This document shows, piece after piece, positions 17,607 to 28,186 of a DNA stretch of 60,435 nucleotides (within the stretch, counting starts at the first letter, position 1; each line of letters opens with the position of its first letter). The notes under the pieces were generated by a model. It was given only the letters and a program-made list of their open reading frames with translations. It did no database searches and had not been told where the DNA came from. Source of the stretch: Pontiellaceae bacterium (GTDB taxonomy: Bacteria; Verrucomicrobiota; Kiritimatiellia; Kiritimatiellales; Pontiellaceae); contig JAFGVP010000129.1 in assembly GCA_016937945.1 (NCBI GenBank), positions 1 to 60,435 on the forward strand, read 5' to 3'. Made by a program: the position numbers and the translations under genes.

Positions 17607-19498
17607 AGCAACGCCTCCATATCGGATTGATTGCCCTAGGACCGGCCCTGCTGGCACTCGTCCTCTATGCCCGCACCGCCGGCTTCGATTTTGTGAACTT
17701 TGACGACAATAACTACTTTTACGACAACCCGCACGTCACAAGCGGACTGACGATGGAAAATATCCGATGGGCCTTTGAGATCCACGGACCGAGCATGTGG
17801 GTTCCGCTCACCTGGCTCTCGCACCAGACCGCAGTCCAGCTGTTCGGGATCGAACCCGGCCCGCACCATCTGATCAATGCCCTGCTGCATGCCGCCAATG
17901 CGGCCCTCCTCTTTCTGCTGGTTCGGCGCTGGAGCGGTAAAACCTCCGCCGCACTTATTGCCGCCGCACTGTTTGCCGTTCATCCCATCCATTCCGAATC
18001 GGTGGCATGGATTACCGAACGCAAGGATGTGCTGGCCGGATTCTTCTGTTTCCTGACCCTGCTGGCCTACGACCGCTATGCGCGGAGGCCGCACCTGTTC
18101 AGTTACATCGCGGTGCTCTGCGGCACCCTGCTGGCCAACATGGCAAAACCGCTGGCAGTCACCCTGCCCTGTCTGATGCTGCTGCTCGATTTCTGGCCCT
18201 ACGACCGCCGCCGCCCTTTTCGTATCCTGTTGGAAAAAGTGCCGCTCTTCGCGATTGTCGCCTTTTCCGCCTGGATGACCACCCGCTGCCAGCTCTCGAT
18301 TCATGCCATCGGCAGCAGCACTGACTTTCCCCTCGGCGGACGGCTGGCCAACAGCGCCGTTGCCTATGCCACCTATCTCAGCAAGCTCGCCTATCCCGCT
18401 GACCTCGCAGTGTTTTATCCCTATCCGGATCATCATTCCCACCCCGTACTGATCGCATCCATCCTTTTGCTGGTGCTGATTACCGTCTGGGCACTGCGGA
18501 GATTACGCACGGCCCCGTGGAATCTGGTCGGCTGGTGCTGGTTTCTCGGCGCGCTGGTTCCGATGATCGGCATCGTGCAGGCCGGATCGCAGGCCATGGC
18601 CGACCGCTATCTCTATCTTCCGGCCGTCGGATTCTACCTGATCGTGGCCATGCTCTGGGCGCAGAGCCGTTTCTGTCGTGGTGCATCGGTGATCATCGTG
18701 CTCCTGCTGATGGTTGGCAATATCAGCCAGACCGCGGTATGGAAAAACAGCCGCTCCCTGTTTGCACATGCGCTGGCCGTCACGGAGAATAATTATCTGG
18801 CGCATAACAACTATGGCCTCACCTTCCGCACTGAAGGCGATCTCGAAACCGCCCGCCGCGAGTTTGAAGCCTCGATCGCCGCCAACCCCGACTATGCCGA
18901 AGGTCATAACAACCTCGGCATCACCCTTGCCGAACTGGGCGATTTTACCGGCGCCATGCAGCATCTAGGCCGGCTTTCCGATGCCACCGCACTCTATAAC
19001 CTCGGTACCGCCCTGCTGCAGAACGACCAGGCGTCCATGGCAGAGCACTGGCTGCTTAATGCCCTCGATATCGATCCGGATAATCCTGATATTCTCTATA
19101 ACATCGGTTGCGCGCTGCAGGCCCAGCTTCGCTATACCGAGGCCATTGCGGCCTTCGACTCCGTGCTGTCACAAATAACCAATCATGTCGGCGCCGGCGT
19201 AAACCGGAACTACTGTCGCCATCAGCTCGATGAGGCCTGGCGCATGCATGAAGAGGGAAACCGGCTGCGCGAAGCCGGGCGACTGATCGAAGCCGAAGCC
19301 GCCTATCGGCAGGCGTTATCCATTAATCCGCGCCTTGCCGAAGCCTACAATAACCTTGGCGTGGTGCTCGGCATGACCGGCCGCCACGGCGAGGCGCTCG
19401 ACTGTTTCAACAACGCCCTGCACATTGCGCCGGATTATCCGGATGCCCGAACCAATGCTGCACAGGCAAGACAGGTATTAATTACTCCGGGATCGTGA
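17603..19498 (+). CDS. TMTC-like integral membrane protein (GT-C fold) with C-terminal TPR domain
   Basis: The start is ATG 17603 (631 aa), inside the ATGA overlap with the epimerase, with GGAG 8 nt upstream. Residues 1 to about 390 hold roughly ten hydrophobic segments. The first extracytoplasmic loop has 'FVNFDDNNYFYDNPHV' (D34, D35), in the position where PMT/TMTC-type GT-C enzymes keep catalytic or metal-binding acids. 'HPIHSESVAWITERKDVL' and 'NMAKPLAVTLPC' are family-typical. Residues about 395-625 form five or six TPR units ending in 'AEAYNNLGVVLGMTGRHGEALDCF'. Family knowledge: eukaryotic TMTCs are O-mannosyltransferases using dolichyl-phosphate mannose. Here a polyprenyl-phosphate sugar donor and a periplasmic acceptor protein are plausible but unproven. 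The 3' end overlaps the convergent repeat-protein gene by 17 bp. Confidence 0.82.
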   Translation: MKQRLHIGLIALGPALLALVLYARTAGFDFVNFDDNNYFYDNPHVTSGLTMENIRWAFEIHGPSMWVPLTWLSHQTAVQLFGIEPGPHHLINALLHAANAALLFLLVRRWSGKTSAALIAAALFAVHPIHSESVAWITERKDVLAGFFCFLTLLAYDRYARRPHLFSYIAVLCGTLLANMAKPLAVTLPCLMLLLDFWPYDRRRPFRILLEKVPLFAIVAFSAWMTTRCQLSIHAIGSSTDFPLGGRLANSAVAYATYLSKLAYPADLAVFYPYPDHHSHPVLIASILLLVLITVWALRRLRTAPWNLVGWCWFLGALVPMIGIVQAGSQAMADRYLYLPAVGFYLIVAMLWAQSRFCRGASVIIVLLLMVGNISQTAVWKNSRSLFAHALAVTENNYLAHNNYGLTFRTEGDLETARREFEASIAANPDYAEGHNNLGITLAELGDFTGAMQHLGRLSDATALYNLGTALLQNDQASMAEHWLLNALDIDPDNPDILYNIGCALQAQLRYTEAIAAFDSVLSQITNHVGAGVNRNYCRHQLDEAWRMHEEGNRLREAGRLIEAEAAYRQALSINPRLAEAYNNLGVVLGMTGRHGEALDCFNNALHIAPDYPDARTNAAQARQVLITPGS

Positions 19499-21509
19499 CC
19501 CGGAAGAAGGCCGCCGGCGGATCCGGTAGAATCTGCACACTGTTGGTACTGAGAGCAACCCAGTCCTGCAGGTTGGTCGAAACGTCCAGATTCCAGCTCA
19601 TTTCAATCATGCCGCTCGGCAGCGCCGCAATCACAACATCGCCCGGCGTTCCATTGAGAATGTCGTTTTCCGTATAGAGTTCAAAATAAGCCCGCTCCTG
19701 CCGGACAAAGGGCAACAGCTCGCTGTCATCCGCAAGCGGGTCCAGATAGCGGGTCACCGACTCCATATAATCATCAAACCCATCGCCATCTGAATCCACC
19801 CGATAGTCAACGGTTCCGAGCAGCGCCTCTTCGACACTGTTCAGGCCGTCGCCGTCGGCATCGGTGATTCCCTTGCTCTGCAAGGCCACCAGGTGTACGG
19901 AATACATCCGGCCCTCTTCCCCCGTTGACGCATATTCATCCGTCACCAGATGCAGCACAGCATCCACGGAATCATTCACTTCGGCATAGGCCGTGACCTG
20001 CAGGTTGGTGGTGGCGCATTCGTGCAGGGTGATCGGGAATACCGCATTCAGATCGAACGATTTGTAGGCGTTTCCATCGAGCCATCCATTCACCAGTGTC
20101 AGGTCCGTAAGCGGGCTGCTTTCTCCCATATCCTGCGACCGGTTTTCCACAGTGATCTCAAATACCATCGGTTGATCATAATTGGTCGTTACCATGGGAT
20201 CTTCCGCATTCCAGGCAAAGCGCGGCCCGACAATGTAGTCCGGCGCATCCGAAACCGCCTCATCAATGATGCGGCACGCGGCGCTGGCCACATAAGAGGT
20301 CGTGCCGGGAGGACATATCAGCCCGCGGGTCGAACCTGACAGGGGAACATAGGTGCCCGGAGCGGCGGCATAAGCTGTTGATGCCCCCGAAACCGACACA
20401 TAATAACCGGGCGGCGCCGGCGTCGGAGCACTGGCACCGATCGTTGCAACAAAAGAACCGGGGGGCGCCATCATGGCGGATGTCGATCCCTCCGCCGGAA
20501 TATAGGTTCCAAGGGGTGCTGGCATGCATACGGTGGCCCCGGATATCGCCACGAAATAACCCACCGGCGCCGGAATACTTGCCGCGGCAGCTGATGCCGG
20601 AACATAGGTTCCCGGAGGGGCCAGAAGGGCAGCCGTGGCGCCCGATGTCGGAATATAACTGCCAGGCGCTGCAGCATAGGCACTGGTTGCGCCGGAGACC
20701 GAAACAAAGTAACCCGGCGGGGCCGGCGTCTGGGCAGAGGCGCCGGACACACTCACAAAGTGTCCGGGATCAGCCAATAAGGCCACCGTTGCCCCTTCCG
20801 TCGGAACATATGTGCCGGGAGGCGCCGCCAACGCCGCTGAGGAGCCTGCATTACTTACATAGTGACCGACCGGAGCCGGAATACATGCGGTGGCTCCTTT
20901 TGTATCAACATAGGTTCCCGGAGGAGCCTGAAGCGCTGCGGAATACCCATAGCCCGGCACATACGATCCCGCCGGAGCCGCAAGTGCTGCCGAAGAACCG
21001 GCACTCGGCGCATAGGTTCCGGGCGGTGCCGGCATCTGGGCGGAGGCGCCGAAGGCCACCACAAAGTGGCCGGGATCTGCCTGGAGAGCGGCCGACGCCC
21101 CGGTCGTCGGAACATACGTGCCGGGCGCGGCGGCAATTGCGACGGAGGAACCCTCCGTACTCACATAATGACCGACCGGGGCCGGATTCGGAGCAGAGGC
21201 ACCCTGTGTTGCAACGTAGGTGCCGACCGGCGCGGGAATCGGCGTTGAATAGCCCGTGCCCGGCACATACGTACCGGCCGGCGCCGCAATTGCCGAGGTC
21301 GAACCGGCGGTCGGGACATAATAACCGACCGGGGCCGCGAGCACGTTGGTTGCACCTGATGTGTAAACAAGGTAACCGGGAGGTGCCGGCACGCCCGGTT
21401 TTTCACCGGTGGCGCTGTAGGTTCCGGGGTCCGTCGGTTCCGCCACGCCCGAATAAACCGAACACAAAAGGGTCAGCGAAGTAAGCTCAATAATATGTCT
21501 GCGCCGCAT
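19482..21509 (-). CDS. Secreted protein built of 17-residue PPGTYVP..GA repeats, with TSP3 repeats and shared C-terminal module
   Basis: A 675-aa protein with a strong RBS (AAGGAGG, 5 nt before ATG) and a signal peptide (MRRRHIIELTSLTLLCSVYS). After one degenerate copy, residues 42-415 are 22 units of exactly 17 residues with consensus A-P-x-G-x-Y-V-x-x-x-G-A-S-x-A-x-x. The units also follow a period of six. Only the last unit carries two cysteines, as in GCC2/GCC3 (Eph-receptor-like) repeats, which the array resembles otherwise. Residues about 420-545 form a beta-sandwich-like segment. TSP3 calcium repeats lie at about 550-585, and the C-terminus is the shared 'NLQDWVAL...AAFFRVTIPE' module. 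Expected location: outer surface or secreted. The array may form an elongated beta-solenoid-like stalk (inference). No enzyme motif was found. Confidence 0.85.
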   Translation of the reverse strand: MRRRHIIELTSLTLLCSVYSGVAEPTDPGTYSATGEKPGVPAPPGYLVYTSGATNVLAAPVGYYVPTAGSTSAIAAPAGTYVPGTGYSTPIPAPVGTYVATQGASAPNPAPVGHYVSTEGSSVAIAAAPGTYVPTTGASAALQADPGHFVVAFGASAQMPAPPGTYAPSAGSSAALAAPAGSYVPGYGYSAALQAPPGTYVDTKGATACIPAPVGHYVSNAGSSAALAAPPGTYVPTEGATVALLADPGHFVSVSGASAQTPAPPGYFVSVSGATSAYAAAPGSYIPTSGATAALLAPPGTYVPASAAAASIPAPVGYFVAISGATVCMPAPLGTYIPAEGSTSAMMAPPGSFVATIGASAPTPAPPGYYVSVSGASTAYAAAPGTYVPLSGSTRGLICPPGTTSYVASAACRIIDEAVSDAPDYIVGPRFAWNAEDPMVTTNYDQPMVFEITVENRSQDMGESSPLTDLTLVNGWLDGNAYKSFDLNAVFPITLHECATTNLQVTAYAEVNDSVDAVLHLVTDEYASTGEEGRMYSVHLVALQSKGITDADGDGLNSVEEALLGTVDYRVDSDGDGFDDYMESVTRYLDPLADDSELLPFVRQERAYFELYTENDILNGTPGDVVIAALPSGMIEMSWNLDVSTNLQDWVALSTNSVQILPDPPAAFFRVTIPE
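20265..21386 (-). repeat. 22 x 51-bp in-frame tandem repeat with six-unit higher-order period
   Basis: The repeat region codes for 22 consecutive 17-residue units with no indel (1122 bp = 22 x 51). Protein-level conservation is strongest for P3/G4, Y6/V7, G11 and A15. Units 7 and 13 both begin ADPGHFV, units 5 and 11 both begin APVGHYV, and units 14/20 and 15/21 are near copies. This implies expansion by a 306-bp (six-unit) block. DNA copies have diverged, so the array is old rather than freshly expanded. Confidence 0.92.
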
Positions 21510-22223: not shown

Positions 22224-23432
<1,209 letters not shown>

Positions 23433-23503: not shown

Positions 23504-24337
23504 ATGGTGTTTAGGAACAAAAAAAGTATTATTGCAGTGGCAGCCGTTGTGCTGCTGGTGGTCGTGTTTGTTCCGCTTCCGTCGCTTACCCTGAGAGGCA
23601 AGGGCGTGGTGCGCGGCAGCGTTGCGCCCGCCGAGCGCGCGACATCCGGCATCTGGCGCCGCCTTTCCGAGGCCGGCGCCGCGATCCGGGGTATCGGCGG
23701 AACCGCCGAAAAAAACATGGAACTCTCCCGCGAACTGATCCGCCTGCAGACCGAACTCAACCGCCTGCGGGACGCCGAAGCCGATAATGTCCGCCTGCAC
23801 CGCGCACTCAACTTTTACCGGAAAAAGCCTGACACCATGATCCCGTGCGACATTGTCAGCCGGAACATCAGCGGCTGGTGGAGCACCGTACGGATCGGCA
23901 AGGGATCCCGCGCCGGCATCGATTCCGATCTCGCCGTAATCAGCCCTGACGGACTGGTGGGGAAAACCACGGAGCCCACCCCGTTCACGACTGAAGTTCT
24001 CCTGATTTCCGACCCCGCCTGCCAGGTATCCGCCAAGATTAAGCTGAAGGATAAAGAGGTTTACGGCCTGGTACGCGGTACCGGCAGCAACCTGAAGGGA
24101 GAACCGCGTGCCCGGATTGAGTTCATTAACAAAGACATCCTCGTCAGCGTGAATGATGAAGTGGTGACATCCGGACTCGGTGCCTTTCCGAAGGGCGTGC
24201 ACATCGGCTATGTAGACGAGGTTTATCGCGATAAATCCGGCCTGTTTCAATATGCGGAGATTATCCCGCGTGCCACCGTCGGCCTGCTCGACTATGTTTT
24301 CGTGGTGGTTCCCTCAGCCCGGGAGGTTCCGGAATGA
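23504..24337 (+). CDS. mreC: Rod shape-determining protein MreC
   Basis: This 277-aa protein has one membrane anchor (about residues 8-27, IIAVAAVVLLVVVFVPL), a coiled coil (about 60-105, with NMELSRELIRLQTELNRLRD) and the paired beta-barrel MreC domain (about 110-270, with 'IGKGSRAGIDSDLAVISPDGLVG' and 'VVTSGLGAFPKGVHIGYV'). MreC is periplasmic, links MreB/MreD to PBP2 and activates RodA-PBP2. It is shorter than E. coli MreC (367 aa) because the C-terminal tail is minimal. It is separated from mreB by 71 bp and overlaps mreD by ATGA. The start codon lies just after a GGGACGG stretch. Confidence 0.95.
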   Translation: MVFRNKKSIIAVAAVVLLVVVFVPLPSLTLRGKGVVRGSVAPAERATSGIWRRLSEAGAAIRGIGGTAEKNMELSRELIRLQTELNRLRDAEADNVRLHRALNFYRKKPDTMIPCDIVSRNISGWWSTVRIGKGSRAGIDSDLAVISPDGLVGKTTEPTPFTTEVLLISDPACQVSAKIKLKDKEVYGLVRGTGSNLKGEPRARIEFINKDILVSVNDEVVTSGLGAFPKGVHIGYVDEVYRDKSGLFQYAEIIPRATVGLLDYVFVVVPSAREVPE

Positions 24338-24843
24338 AGCGGCGCGCCTATATGCTGATTCTGATTCTCTGCGGCGCCCTGTTGCAGCAGGTTTTGCCGC
24401 CTATTGCTCCGCTGGGTGGCATGAAACCGCCGATTCTTGCGGCGCTGGCCCTGCATCATGCTCTGCGCAAGGGGTCCCCAGACTTCTGGATGGCCGTCGT
24501 GCTGGCGGCGCTGCTGCAGGATGGGCTGGAGCTGGGCTCCTTTGGTCCGGCGCTGCTGACCTTTCCGGCCATGAGCCTGCTGGCCCGCCGCATTCGTAAT
24601 GAGATATTTTCAGACGGAATCGTTACCCAGCTGGTTATGGGCGCCGGACTGGGCCTGTTTGTCACATTCACCACGCTGATCATCTATTCCGCCACCGGGC
24701 AACGGGCTATTCCGCCGGCGCTGGGTTTTCTGCGACTGGGCGGATCCATGCTGCTGGGCATGGTTACTCTTCCGATCATATCGCGCGGGATTAACTGGCT
24801 GGAATCGCTGATTCCCAAACCCCGGGAGTACGGCTGGCAATGA
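24334..24843 (+). CDS. mreD: Rod shape-determining protein MreD
   Basis: This 169-aa, very hydrophobic protein has five or six membrane segments, the size and profile of MreD. It overlaps mreC by 4 bp upstream and mrdA by 4 bp downstream (ATGA each time), so translation is coupled through all three. 'GMKPPILAALALHHALRKG' resembles the conserved N-terminal half of MreD. Identification rests mainly on position between mreC and PBP2 and on membrane topology, because the family is poorly conserved. It is a component of the elongasome in the inner membrane. Confidence 0.9.
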   Translation: MKRRAYMLILILCGALLQQVLPPIAPLGGMKPPILAALALHHALRKGSPDFWMAVVLAALLQDGLELGSFGPALLTFPAMSLLARRIRNEIFSDGIVTQLVMGAGLGLFVTFTTLIIYSATGQRAIPPALGFLRLGGSMLLGMVTLPIISRGINWLESLIPKPREYGWQ

Positions 24844-27011
24844 AGGTAAGGCATAAAAGAGAAGCGAGCATTCTGGTCATCTGGTCCGTCCTGGGCCTGA
24901 TGCTGACCGGCATGGGCACGCTTGTGGCTGAGCTTTGGCAGCTGCAGGTGCAGAACCAAAGCGGATTCGACGAAGCATTCCGAAACCAGAGTGTCCGGCG
25001 CGTCCGGCTGCCGGCGGTCCGCGGACGCATCTACGACACCCACGAAGAGTGCCTGGCCGACAGCGTTCCCAACTACTGCATCGCCATCTATACCGCCGAA
25101 CTGCGATCCCCGCGATCGGGCGTGGCCAATACACTGGAGCTGGTGCATGAAATCCGGCAGCGCATCGGCCGAGAAGCGGATGTCTCGTTCGAGGATATCA
25201 AGCGCCACATGGCGCTCTCACCGCACCAGCGGCTGGAAGCCTGGAAAAACCTGACGCCGGCGGAAATTTCCAAATGGCGCGCCGCATTCGAGGTGTGGAC
25301 GGCACCGCAGGAGGGCTCCTTCCGCCGGACCCGTGTTCCCGGGCTCGACCTCGGCCGCCCCATTGAGGGCAGTTCCATCATGATCGATACGGCCGAGCTG
25401 GATCAACGCCCGACCCGTACAAGGGCCAACACGCTGGAACTGGTCTATACGATTGCAGAGCGGATCGGGAAGCCGGTGGAAATCGACCTTCAGGACATTA
25501 AGAACCATATCTATGCCCGACGTCCCCTGCCCCTGCTGGCGTGGGAAAATATTGATGCCGCCACCATGGCCAAATGGGCGGATACCTGCTCCAACCTGAC
25601 GGGAACCGATATTTATTACAAACCCGACCGTACCTATCCGGAAGGCGAAAATCTCTCCCATCTGATCGGCTTCACGCGTGAGGCGGATGAAATTCAGGAG
25701 GAACAGGGAGAACACATCGATTTTGACATGCGCGGACTCGAGGGCATCAAAGGACTGGAAAGCACCTATAACGATCTGCTCGGTGGCGAGCCCGGCTATA
25801 AACTGGTCCAGATCGATGTCTCCGGCTTTCATCACCGCGACCTGCAGGAAAAGGCGCCGCGCCCCGGCGGCGACCTGATGCTGACGATTGACCGGAATAT
25901 ACAGCGATTTGCGACGGAGGCACTTGCAATGCGACAGGATGGCGAAGTGCCGGACCAGCCCGTACGCGGCGCCGTCGTCGTACTGGATCCCAACAACGGG
26001 GATGTTCTGGCGCTGGCCAGCTCGCCCTCGTTCGATCCTAATAAATACATGACTTCCGCGCCGTACCGCATCGCCCTGAACAACGATCCATCCGGACGGG
26101 CCAATAACCGGGCGGTTTACGGGCAGTATCCGCCGGGCAGCACCTTCAAACCGATTGCAGCGCTGGGCGTTCTGCGCGAATATCCGGAATATGCGGAAGT
26201 CACCCACGTCTGCGAATATCCGTGGTATGTGGACAAAGAGCGCCATCGCTACAAAAAACGCTGCTGGGTGCATCCGTCCGAACACGGCGAGATCACCCTG
26301 CGTCAAGCCCTCATGTTTTCCTGCAACTGCTATATGTATGAGATGGCGCTGGAGGTCGGGTTCGAACCGATTCACTCCATGGCTGAAGAGATGGGCATCG
26401 GCCAGTACGCCGGCCTGTTCCCCGACCTTGAGGAACCGCCGGCGCAAAAGAATTCTTCCTACGGCAACCTGCCTGACAAGGCGAACAACAAGATCGACCT
26501 CTGCAACATGGCGATCGGCCAGGGCGCCATCACCGCCAGTCCGCTCCAGATGGCCATGGTGGCGGCGACCATTGCCAACGGCGGCACGCTTTATCGTCCG
26601 CGTCTGGTGCGCAAGTGGCGGACCGGCCCCATGGAGGAGTATAACTACAATCCCACCTGGGCCATCCGGCGCATTGATATTCCCATGGAAGCCCTCGAAC
26701 TGGTGCGTGGCGGCATGTTCGATGTAGTGAACGATCCCTATGACGGCACCGCCAAGAAAGCGCAGGTGCCCGGGGTCACGATTGCGGGCAAAACCGGCTC
26801 GGCCCAGTACAGAAAAGTGGTCAACGGGGAAACCGTCGGCAGCGTTCATGCCTGGATGATTTCGTTCGCACCGTATGATTTCCCCCGCTATGCCGTGGCT
26901 ATGATGGTCGAGGACGGGGTCTCCGGCGGTCGAACCATCGGCCCGCGCCTGAGCTATCTCTACAGCAGGATTTTTGAATATGACGGCACACTCAAGAAGG
27001 AGGTTATGTGA
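24840..27011 (+). CDS. mrdA: Penicillin-binding protein 2 (elongasome transpeptidase) with duplicated pedestal segment
   Basis: This 723-aa class B PBP has one membrane anchor (about 10-32) and cross-links lateral wall peptidoglycan with RodA. Catalytic motifs are complete: SxxK 'PPGSTFKP' (S434, K437), SxN 'FSCNCY' (S494-N496) and KTG 'AGKTGSAQY' (651-653). The N-terminal 'RGRIYDTHEECLADS' is the usual PBP2 start of the pedestal domain. The protein is about 90 residues longer than E. coli PBP2 (633 aa). The extra length is explained by an internal tandem duplication: residues 81-153 and 180-253 share 'TAEL...ANTLELV..I..RIG' and later 'DIK.H...L.AW.N...A...KW'. It overlaps mreD and is followed immediately by rodA. 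Confidence 0.95.
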   Translation: MKVRHKREASILVIWSVLGLMLTGMGTLVAELWQLQVQNQSGFDEAFRNQSVRRVRLPAVRGRIYDTHEECLADSVPNYCIAIYTAELRSPRSGVANTLELVHEIRQRIGREADVSFEDIKRHMALSPHQRLEAWKNLTPAEISKWRAAFEVWTAPQEGSFRRTRVPGLDLGRPIEGSSIMIDTAELDQRPTRTRANTLELVYTIAERIGKPVEIDLQDIKNHIYARRPLPLLAWENIDAATMAKWADTCSNLTGTDIYYKPDRTYPEGENLSHLIGFTREADEIQEEQGEHIDFDMRGLEGIKGLESTYNDLLGGEPGYKLVQIDVSGFHHRDLQEKAPRPGGDLMLTIDRNIQRFATEALAMRQDGEVPDQPVRGAVVVLDPNNGDVLALASSPSFDPNKYMTSAPYRIALNNDPSGRANNRAVYGQYPPGSTFKPIAALGVLREYPEYAEVTHVCEYPWYVDKERHRYKKRCWVHPSEHGEITLRQALMFSCNCYMYEMALEVGFEPIHSMAEEMGIGQYAGLFPDLEEPPAQKNSSYGNLPDKANNKIDLCNMAIGQGAITASPLQMAMVAATIANGGTLYRPRLVRKWRTGPMEEYNYNPTWAIRRIDIPMEALELVRGGMFDVVNDPYDGTAKKAQVPGVTIAGKTGSAQYRKVVNGETVGSVHAWMISFAPYDFPRYAVAMMVEDGVSGGRTIGPRLSYLYSRIFEYDGTLKKEVM
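25080..25598 (+). repeat. Internal tandem duplication within mrdA
   Basis: Residues 81-153 (25080-25298) and 180-253 (25377-25598) of PBP2 align end to end with a single one-residue gap. By hand I count about 28 identical positions of about 73. The shared core includes ANTLELV, RIG, DIK, AW and KW. The copies have drifted well apart, so the duplication is old and probably shared by relatives. Confidence 0.85.
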
Positions 27012-28186
27012 TGAATGGAATTCATCCAAAGCGCCTTGACTGGGTAATGCTCGGAACGATTTTGATGCTGATCGGGCTGAGCGTGGCCTTCATTTTCAGC
27101 GCGCAGTTTAAATCGGATGATGTATACGGCAATAACTGGCTGAAGCAGCTGGTTTTTGCCGGCATGGGGTTGTGCGCCTATTTCGGGCTGGTCTGGTACG
27201 ACTACAACAACGTGGCGCGGCTGGCCTGGTTTATTTATGGCGGCGCTATGGTGCTCCTGCTGCTCGTATTCGTCTTTCCGGCCGTGAACGGAGCACATCG
27301 CTGGATTCCGCTTCCGGGCTTTACGCTGCAGGCCTCGGAAATCGGCAAGATTGCGGTGGTGATCGGCCTTTCGGCTTACCTTTCGGCGCCGGACCGCGAC
27401 ATGGACGAGTGGAAAACCTTTTTCACGGCGGCGGCGATTGTCGGCGTTCCCTTCCTGCTGATTGCGGCGGAACCGGACCTGAGTACTTCGCTCACGCTTG
27501 CACCGATCACGCTGGCCATCATGCTCTACTGCGGCCTGCAGCGGCGTCTGCTGCTCATCGGCGCCGCAGCAGTAGTCCTGATGGCGACGTTGATCTGTTT
27601 CTGGATCAAGTATGAGGACTCGCCGGAAATCAGGGCCCTGCCGAAGGAGGAACAGCCGCGTATCATACTGCCGCGCATGCCGTTCCTTGCGGATTACCAG
27701 AAGGGCCGCATCAAGGTGTTCCTCACCGAGGATCACGACCTTGCCAACGCCGGATGGAACAAGCTGCAGTCGCAGATCGCCGTAGGCTCCGGCGGCCTGG
27801 CCGGCAAAGGCTACCTGAACGGGACTCAGAACATTCTGGGCTTTCTGCCCCGGACGGTGGCGCCCACGGATTTTATCTTCTGCGTGATTGCGGAAGAGAC
27901 CGGATTTCTGGGTGGAGCGGGTTTTGCCCTGCTCTACTCGCTGTTGTTAGGACGATGTATGTGGGCCTCGATTAAGGCCCGGGATGAGTTTGGGCGGCTC
28001 GTGGCGCTGGGAATCGGCGTCATGTTGTTCTGCCATGTGTTTGTGAACATTGCGATGACGATCGGTATTCTGCCGATCACGGGATTGCCGCTGCCCCTGA
28101 TGAGCTACGGCGGATCCTTCATGATTAGCATCATGATCGCGCTCGGATTGGTACAGAGTGTGTACCACCGAAGAAGAATTAGATAA
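27011..28186 (+). CDS. rodA: Peptidoglycan glycosyltransferase RodA (SEDS family)
   Basis: I choose ATG 27011 (391 aa). It overlaps the last base of the mrdA stop and has GGAGG 7 nt upstream; a GTG one codon earlier is the alternative. About ten membrane segments are present. Family signatures are 'LPGFTLQASEIGKIAVVIGL' (about residues 100-120), the large periplasmic loop with 'LQSQIAVGSGGLAGKGY' and 'FLPRTVAPTDFIFCVIAEETGFLG' (about 250-300), and the C-terminal 'PLPLMSYGGS'. RodA polymerises glycan strands from lipid II and pairs with PBP2, encoded just upstream. The loop after the central membrane helices (EDSPEIRALPKEEQPRI) is somewhat long and charged. The operon continues into rng after 11 bp. 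Confidence 0.95.
   Translation: MNGIHPKRLDWVMLGTILMLIGLSVAFIFSAQFKSDDVYGNNWLKQLVFAGMGLCAYFGLVWYDYNNVARLAWFIYGGAMVLLLLVFVFPAVNGAHRWIPLPGFTLQASEIGKIAVVIGLSAYLSAPDRDMDEWKTFFTAAAIVGVPFLLIAAEPDLSTSLTLAPITLAIMLYCGLQRRLLLIGAAAVVLMATLICFWIKYEDSPEIRALPKEEQPRIILPRMPFLADYQKGRIKVFLTEDHDLANAGWNKLQSQIAVGSGGLAGKGYLNGTQNILGFLPRTVAPTDFIFCVIAEETGFLGGAGFALLYSLLLGRCMWASIKARDEFGRLVALGIGVMLFCHVFVNIAMTIGILPITGLPLPLMSYGGSFMISIMIALGLVQSVYHRRRIR

Follow-up and report, generated by a model that had tools for sequence, protein, structure and literature searches.

Why would a penicillin-binding protein of the elongasome carry part of its pedestal twice? The question is raised by a single gene in a stretch of 60,435 nucleotides from a Pontiellaceae bacterium (contig JAFGVP010000129.1), to which we refer as the window. 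A first-pass annotation of the window described the gene product as PBP2 with a tandem duplication inside the pedestal, and speculated that the doubling could alter elongasome regulation together with a short MreC protein.

The pedestal is a plausible place for such a change to matter. In Helicobacter pylori, MreC pushes between the anchor and the head of PBP2 and binds a hydrophobic zipper on the head, according to the available part of that report (PMC5626683). For Thermus thermophilus and Escherichia coli, it has been proposed that MreC on the pedestal opens PBP2, relieves interface II and activates RodA (PMC10257715, available in part). Activity-altering mutations concentrate at the junction of the pedestal with the extracellular loop ECL4 (PMC8078798), and this contact controls the activity of SEDS proteins (PMC8078798, PMC10257715, the available sections of both).

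Identity of the protein and its neighbours

The reading frame at 24840..27011 (+) starts with ATG and encodes 723 amino acids. Pfam Transpeptidase (PF00905) matches residues 377–694 (25968..26921, +) with 193.6 bits, and the catalytic motifs SxxK, SxN and KTG are all intact (STFK at 434, SCN at 494, KTG at 651). The N-terminal transmembrane helix is hydrophobic by reading the sequence and occupies residues 11–38 in the AlphaFold model. TIGR03423 (pbp2_mrdA) is the best of 21 NCBIfam matches; its 405 bits fall under the equivalog cut-off of 455, and its best-scoring stretch begins only at residue 209, within the second copy of the repeat described below. Hence, the duplication probably costs profile score. 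The assignment as an MrdA-type class B penicillin-binding protein makes no use of this cut-off, but is based on the motifs, the best NCBIfam match and the position beside mreC, mreD and rodA, and on these grounds the PBP2 identity given by the first-pass annotation holds. Standard PBP2/MrdA proteins (TIGR03423; PDB 8tj3, 6g9p, 7kis, 5lp4) have the same transmembrane helix, anchor–head–linker pedestal and SxxK/SxN/KTG transpeptidase, and in the elongasome their gene likewise lies beside mreC, mreD and rodA.

Profile matches give the gene order mreC, mreD, PBP2, rodA. Pfam and NCBIfam profiles identify mreC (23504..24337, +; 277 amino acids). The mreD gene (24334..24843, +; 169 amino acids) is named from its position and a weak TIGR03426 match, 21.4 bits against a cut-off of 34.85, with no Pfam match. 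The SEDS glycosyltransferase partner gene rodA (27008..28186, +; 392 amino acids) reaches 347.2 bits with TIGR02210, which exceeds the cut-off of 336.7. Upstream of mreC, the frame at 22263–23432 is mreB as judged by eye, and its relatives keep the same gene order at related loci. Farther away, a frame of 675 amino acids (19482–21509, −) consists mostly of repeats of about 20 residues of the type PAPPGTYVPTxGASAA behind an N-terminus that is signal-like by eye; it looks like a repetitive surface protein.

The internal repeat

The Pfam PBP_dimer profile (PF03717, 79.6 bits) is stretched in PBP2 across residues 57–329 for 172 profile positions. These positions take 819 bases, whereas in the one other PBP_dimer protein of the genome 171 positions take 492 bases. 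Hence, this second protein is not doubled.

PBP2 contains an internal repeat. When residues 66–165 are aligned to residues 166–280 (local alignment, BLOSUM62), residues 81–147 pair with 180–247 at 29 of 66 identical positions with one gap and a score of 128. Shuffled sequences score 24.9 on average (standard deviation 4.3, maximum 52), and none of 5000 scores as high as the real pair. The homology between residues 81–153 and 180–253, counted by hand as about 28 of 73 identities in the first-pass annotation, is thereby confirmed, with units that slightly exceed those limits: copy A covers about residues 77–175 (25068..25364, +) and copy B about residues 176–262 (25365..25625, +). Identities between the copies at the three codon positions are 0.58, 0.64 and 0.45, which shows that the repeat is old and diverged. 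The protein was also correctly described as about 90 residues longer than E. coli PBP2; PDB chain 8tj3_C (MrdA), which we take to be the E. coli protein, has 633 residues. The distance between the motifs RG.I.D and G..GLE is 241 in the window and 144 in the sister genus, an in-frame insertion of about 97 residues.

The repeated unit of about 97 amino acids corresponds in position and secondary structure to the pedestal's head subdomain. The pedestal of Acinetobacter baumannii PBP2 consists of an anchor (53–68 and 216–243), a head (78–165) and a linker (166–215), as given in the available part of that report (PMC9974482). The earlier placement of the doubled piece in the pedestal can therefore be narrowed to the head, the place where MreC docks in H. 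pylori (PMC5626683, in part). The relatives examined have one head, as do the published PBP2 structures in the available parts of their reports (PMC5626683, PMC9974482), whereas the proteins of this genus carry two in tandem. Two heads, seen both in the sequence repeat and in the model, depart from the single head of a PBP2 pedestal. We do not hold a single head to define the PBP2 family and treat the doubled head as a variant feature. Among the open-licence papers listed in our literature searches, no title or abstract opening describes a doubled PBP2 head.

Distribution across genomes

A repeat in a single contig could be an assembly artefact, or two such segments could be ordinary in PBP2. 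The comparison of genomes refutes both explanations, to which we assign a negligible probability. In the family, 29 genomes were searched: that of the window, 27 others of its genus and one from the sister genus. Both copies are present in 25 of the 28 genus genomes, which were assembled separately; 24 of these proteins are full-length and one is cut after residue 554. In the remaining three genomes, PBP2 is cut before residue 158 (one genome) or has no match (two incomplete genomes). The PBP2s of the other 24 double-headed genomes share 53–69% protein identity with that of the window. All relatives examined are single-headed. The sister genus, known from one incomplete genome (79%), has a PBP2 that matches residues 1–92 and then, in adjoining DNA, residues 194–564, as expected for one head. 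In the sister family the main matches start at about residue 193–212 in 13 of 13 genomes (in pieces in G033), again one head. The spacing between RG.I.D and G..GLE is 235–248 in the 25 genus proteins that have both motifs, 144 in the sister genus and 143–144 in 11 sister-family proteins.

The internal repeat itself gives the same picture. Its z-score is 13–32 in 25 of 26 genus PBP2s, the exception (L026) being cut ahead of copy A. Of 55 PBP2s tested outside the genus, none exceeds 5.6; L064 was left out of this test as too short. The two highest scores outside the genus belong to L056 (5.6) and L061 (5.5), with motif spans of 149 and 150. Longer spans of 164–182 occur elsewhere in the phylum (L092, L095, L096, L098 and L100–L102), all without an internal repeat. 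Hence, among the 55 non-genus PBP2s tested by sequence we saw no independent head duplication. Among the matches listed in searches of 192 and 288 genomes, of which a sample was read as sequence, a match running through both copies appears only in the genus. Since these wider searches cover listed matches and a sample of sequences, another lineage may have duplicated its head independently.

Mapped onto its relatives, the second copy thus occurs throughout the genus, while the sister genus and sister family are single-headed. The doubled protein is a genuine variant of the known enzyme PBP2, shared across the genus. The genus is most likely Pontiella.

Origin and conservation of the two heads

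In a maximum likelihood tree of the heads, all A copies form one clade (support 99/99), all B copies form another (100/98), and A and B group together (99/87). Next to branch off, with weak support (96/38), is the head of the sister genus. The tree was built from 92 segments (24 A, 24 B and 44 single heads) over 89 columns, few per row, so that bootstrap values are not fully settled; it covers 24 of the 25 double-headed proteins and leaves out L028 (complete, with both copies) and the cut L026. Most simply, these sequences are read as the product of one tandem duplication, in frame and about 97 codons long, that took place on the genus stem.

Mean identities, calculated without L027, are 0.574 among A copies, 0.639 among B copies and 0.308 between A and B; the sister-genus head is 0.28 identical to A and 0.412 to B. 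Copy A also sits on the longer branch of the tree (1.1 vs 0.74 for copy B). Within the genus (23 proteins), pairwise identity is 0.591 for head A, 0.646 for head B, 0.658 for the transpeptidase and 0.453 for the joint between the heads. Both heads are nearly as conserved as the catalytic domain.

The two copies appear to have kept the ancestral sequence in a complementary fashion. In the columns of strand beta-3, retention is 2.94 for A and 0.42 for B, whereas in the C half it is 1.02 for A and 1.98 for B. Judged by repeat alignment, head tree and model, copy A has kept the ancestral beta-3, has a diverged C half and lacks beta-5; copy B has kept the ancestral C half, and its beta-3 is diverged and short.

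Predicted structure of the pedestal

The AlphaFold model of PBP2 (mean pLDDT 91.7) contains two helical heads. The copies are not structurally unlike, which would have spoken against the duplication: the same helix–helix–strand–helix head is predicted for both. The long strands are distributed unevenly between them (AlphaFold2/DSSP). A long beta-3 is found in copy A only (residues 71–83, including the upstream flank; 25050..25088, +) and a long beta-5 in copy B only (residues 256–265; 25605..25634, +). With one long strand from each copy, the heads most likely lie side by side on one shared stalk in the predicted structure, with the ancestral stalk-facing surfaces split between the copies; the pairing of the strands follows from the lengths of the DSSP elements.

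One could argue that such an arrangement explains itself. If the stalk strands come from different copies, then neither copy can be lost, and the second head may be a neutral ornament fixed by a ratchet, with no new regulatory role. We take this rival to the reading of a rebuilt switch seriously, even if we think it the less probable of the two, at perhaps one chance in a few. Mutual dependence would leave just such a division, with beta-3 retained in A and the C half in B, and the longer branch of copy A also fits. Harder to reconcile with an ornament is the nearly equal conservation of the heads (0.591 and 0.646) and the transpeptidase (0.658).

Changes in MreC and RodA

If the second head serves regulation, then its partners might have changed with it. 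The obvious candidate is MreC, and the first-pass annotation took its 277 residues to be short. This length is ordinary: MreC has 273–280 residues in the genus, 278 in the sister genus and 273–276 in six complete MreCs of the sister family, and neither relative carries the duplication. Of the six regions whose stem branch was measured, MreC has the shortest (0.206). Its identity to the sister family is 0.428 for the genus and 0.480 for the sister genus, a small difference in relative rate. The proposed co-evolution of PBP2 and MreC thus finds no echo in MreC length or rate across the genus, sister genus and sister family; length is equal with and without the duplication, and little change was added on the branch.

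It is therefore improbable, in our view, that the doubled head co-evolved mainly with MreC, for example by binding one MreC per head. The idea has some appeal, since MreC does bind the PBP2 head in H. pylori and since the crystal contained PBP2 and MreC at 1:2. Just one of these MreC molecules touched PBP2, however, according to the available part of the report (PMC5626683).

RodA looks different. Between the end of TM7 and the YQK motif at the start of ECL4 lies a putative insertion zone (about residues 199–224; 27602..27679, +), delimited by length comparison and pLDDT. This stretch measures 29–34 residues in 24 of 24 genus RodAs (the cut L010 left out), 16 in the one sister-genus RodA and 15–16 in 11 of 11 sister-family RodAs; the genus is 13–19 residues longer. 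The sister-genus RodA sits beside a PBP2 C-terminus, on another contig than most of the sister-genus PBP2. AlphaFold is confident about the insertion (pLDDT blocks 87–92), which is poorly conserved in the genus (identity 0.428). Of 18 more distant RodAs, 9 likewise have stretches of 28–31 residues, and no doubled head was seen in those genomes. Together with the poor conservation, this means that the coincidence with the duplication may be chance.

The rest of the pedestal has changed as well. When compared with the sister family, linker and C-terminal anchor show an identity of 0.361 in the genus vs 0.560 in the sister genus. The corresponding values are 0.422 vs 0.508 for the transpeptidase, 0.526 vs 0.609 for RodA with the loop removed and 0.280 vs 0.295 for MreD. 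Switched conserved residues number 12 of 75 outside the heads and transpeptidase (transmembrane region included) and 8 of 92 in the transpeptidase, which is not clearly an enrichment. In the anchor strand, YYLP (residues 296–298; 25725–25733) is found in 9 of 10 single-headed rows compared; the six genus rows compared have FDMR or a similar sequence instead. In comparison to standard PBP2/MrdA, the genus protein differs in a pedestal that is 97 amino acids longer and in an anchor strand changed from YYLP to FDMR.

The longer ECL4 and the faster change in the rest of the pedestal suggest that the RodA-facing side of PBP2 was affected, pointing to RodA and the anchor and linker rather than to MreC. 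That the linker and anchor changed strongly and RodA gained a loop segment on the same branch also argues against a neutral ornament. In known RodA/FtsW pairs with class B penicillin-binding proteins, ECL4 and pedestal exert control (PMC8078798, PMC10257715, the available parts), and the RodA–PBP2 pair is likewise encoded side by side here. Unlike in those pairs, the PBP2 head is doubled and the start of RodA ECL4 is lengthened on the same branch.

Cell shape and division

Three Pontiella strains, Kiritimatiella glycovorans and Tichowtungia aerotolerans are all described as spherical in the available part of the source (PMC10880615). With members and relatives all spherical, the duplication is not correlated with cell shape at this level, and a spherical shape with and without it is also what one would expect of a neutral ornament.

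That the elongasome was altered because FtsZ had been lost was rejected, since a divergent FtsZ is present. In the window's genome it lies at G000:C99:13757-14686 and reaches 205 bits, below the cut-off of 295.2. FtsZ matches occur in 24 of 29 family genomes, none above 295.2, and in the single-contig genome G012 the match falls into two overlapping frames. RodZ may be absent or diverged: RodZ_C (PF13464) has no match in the window's whole genome and matches in 6 of 14 control genomes.

A probably rebuilt elongasome switch

We consider it somewhat probable that the protein is an ordinary elongasome transpeptidase whose partner-facing regulatory surface was enlarged and rebuilt by the head duplication. 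A tandem duplication on the genus stem doubled the pedestal head, and both copies are conserved throughout the genus. According to this reading, the heads would stand side by side on one stalk, dividing the stalk-facing surfaces between them. Doubling the head on a shared stalk would enlarge the surface used for MreC and ECL4 docking and for switching. The duplicated unit is the counterpart of the zipper-bearing, MreC-binding head of H. pylori (PMC5626683, available part). The H. pylori head is single; here the presumed site would be composite, with a strand from copy A and a helix and a strand from copy B. MreC, RodA ECL4 or both could find a second surface on the additional lobe, and the enlarged head surface might retune the closed-to-open switch that controls RodA. 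A more specific version, in which the composite MreC site belongs to one head while the other serves as a new lobe for the longer RodA ECL4 or a second MreC, giving a rewired and possibly bivalent switch in spherical cells, is tentative and has perhaps half the probability of the general one.

The contact between the pedestal, RodA ECL4 and MreC is the proposed switch of wall elongation, and the role of each head surface is unsettled in the available parts of the literature (PMC8078798, PMC10257715). A natural genus-wide doubling of the head, with single-headed near relatives and a change in RodA on the same branch, is a ready-made experiment. Removing heads or swapping them between related proteins could tell which surface is read by MreC and which by RodA. 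Our results also suggest that a small domain can duplicate within a conserved membrane enzyme by splitting stalk strands between the copies. The doubled head also bears on the job of the elongasome in cocci, given the spherical shape of the described relatives. From sequence and model, we predict that the wall-growth switch has probably been rebuilt in this genus.
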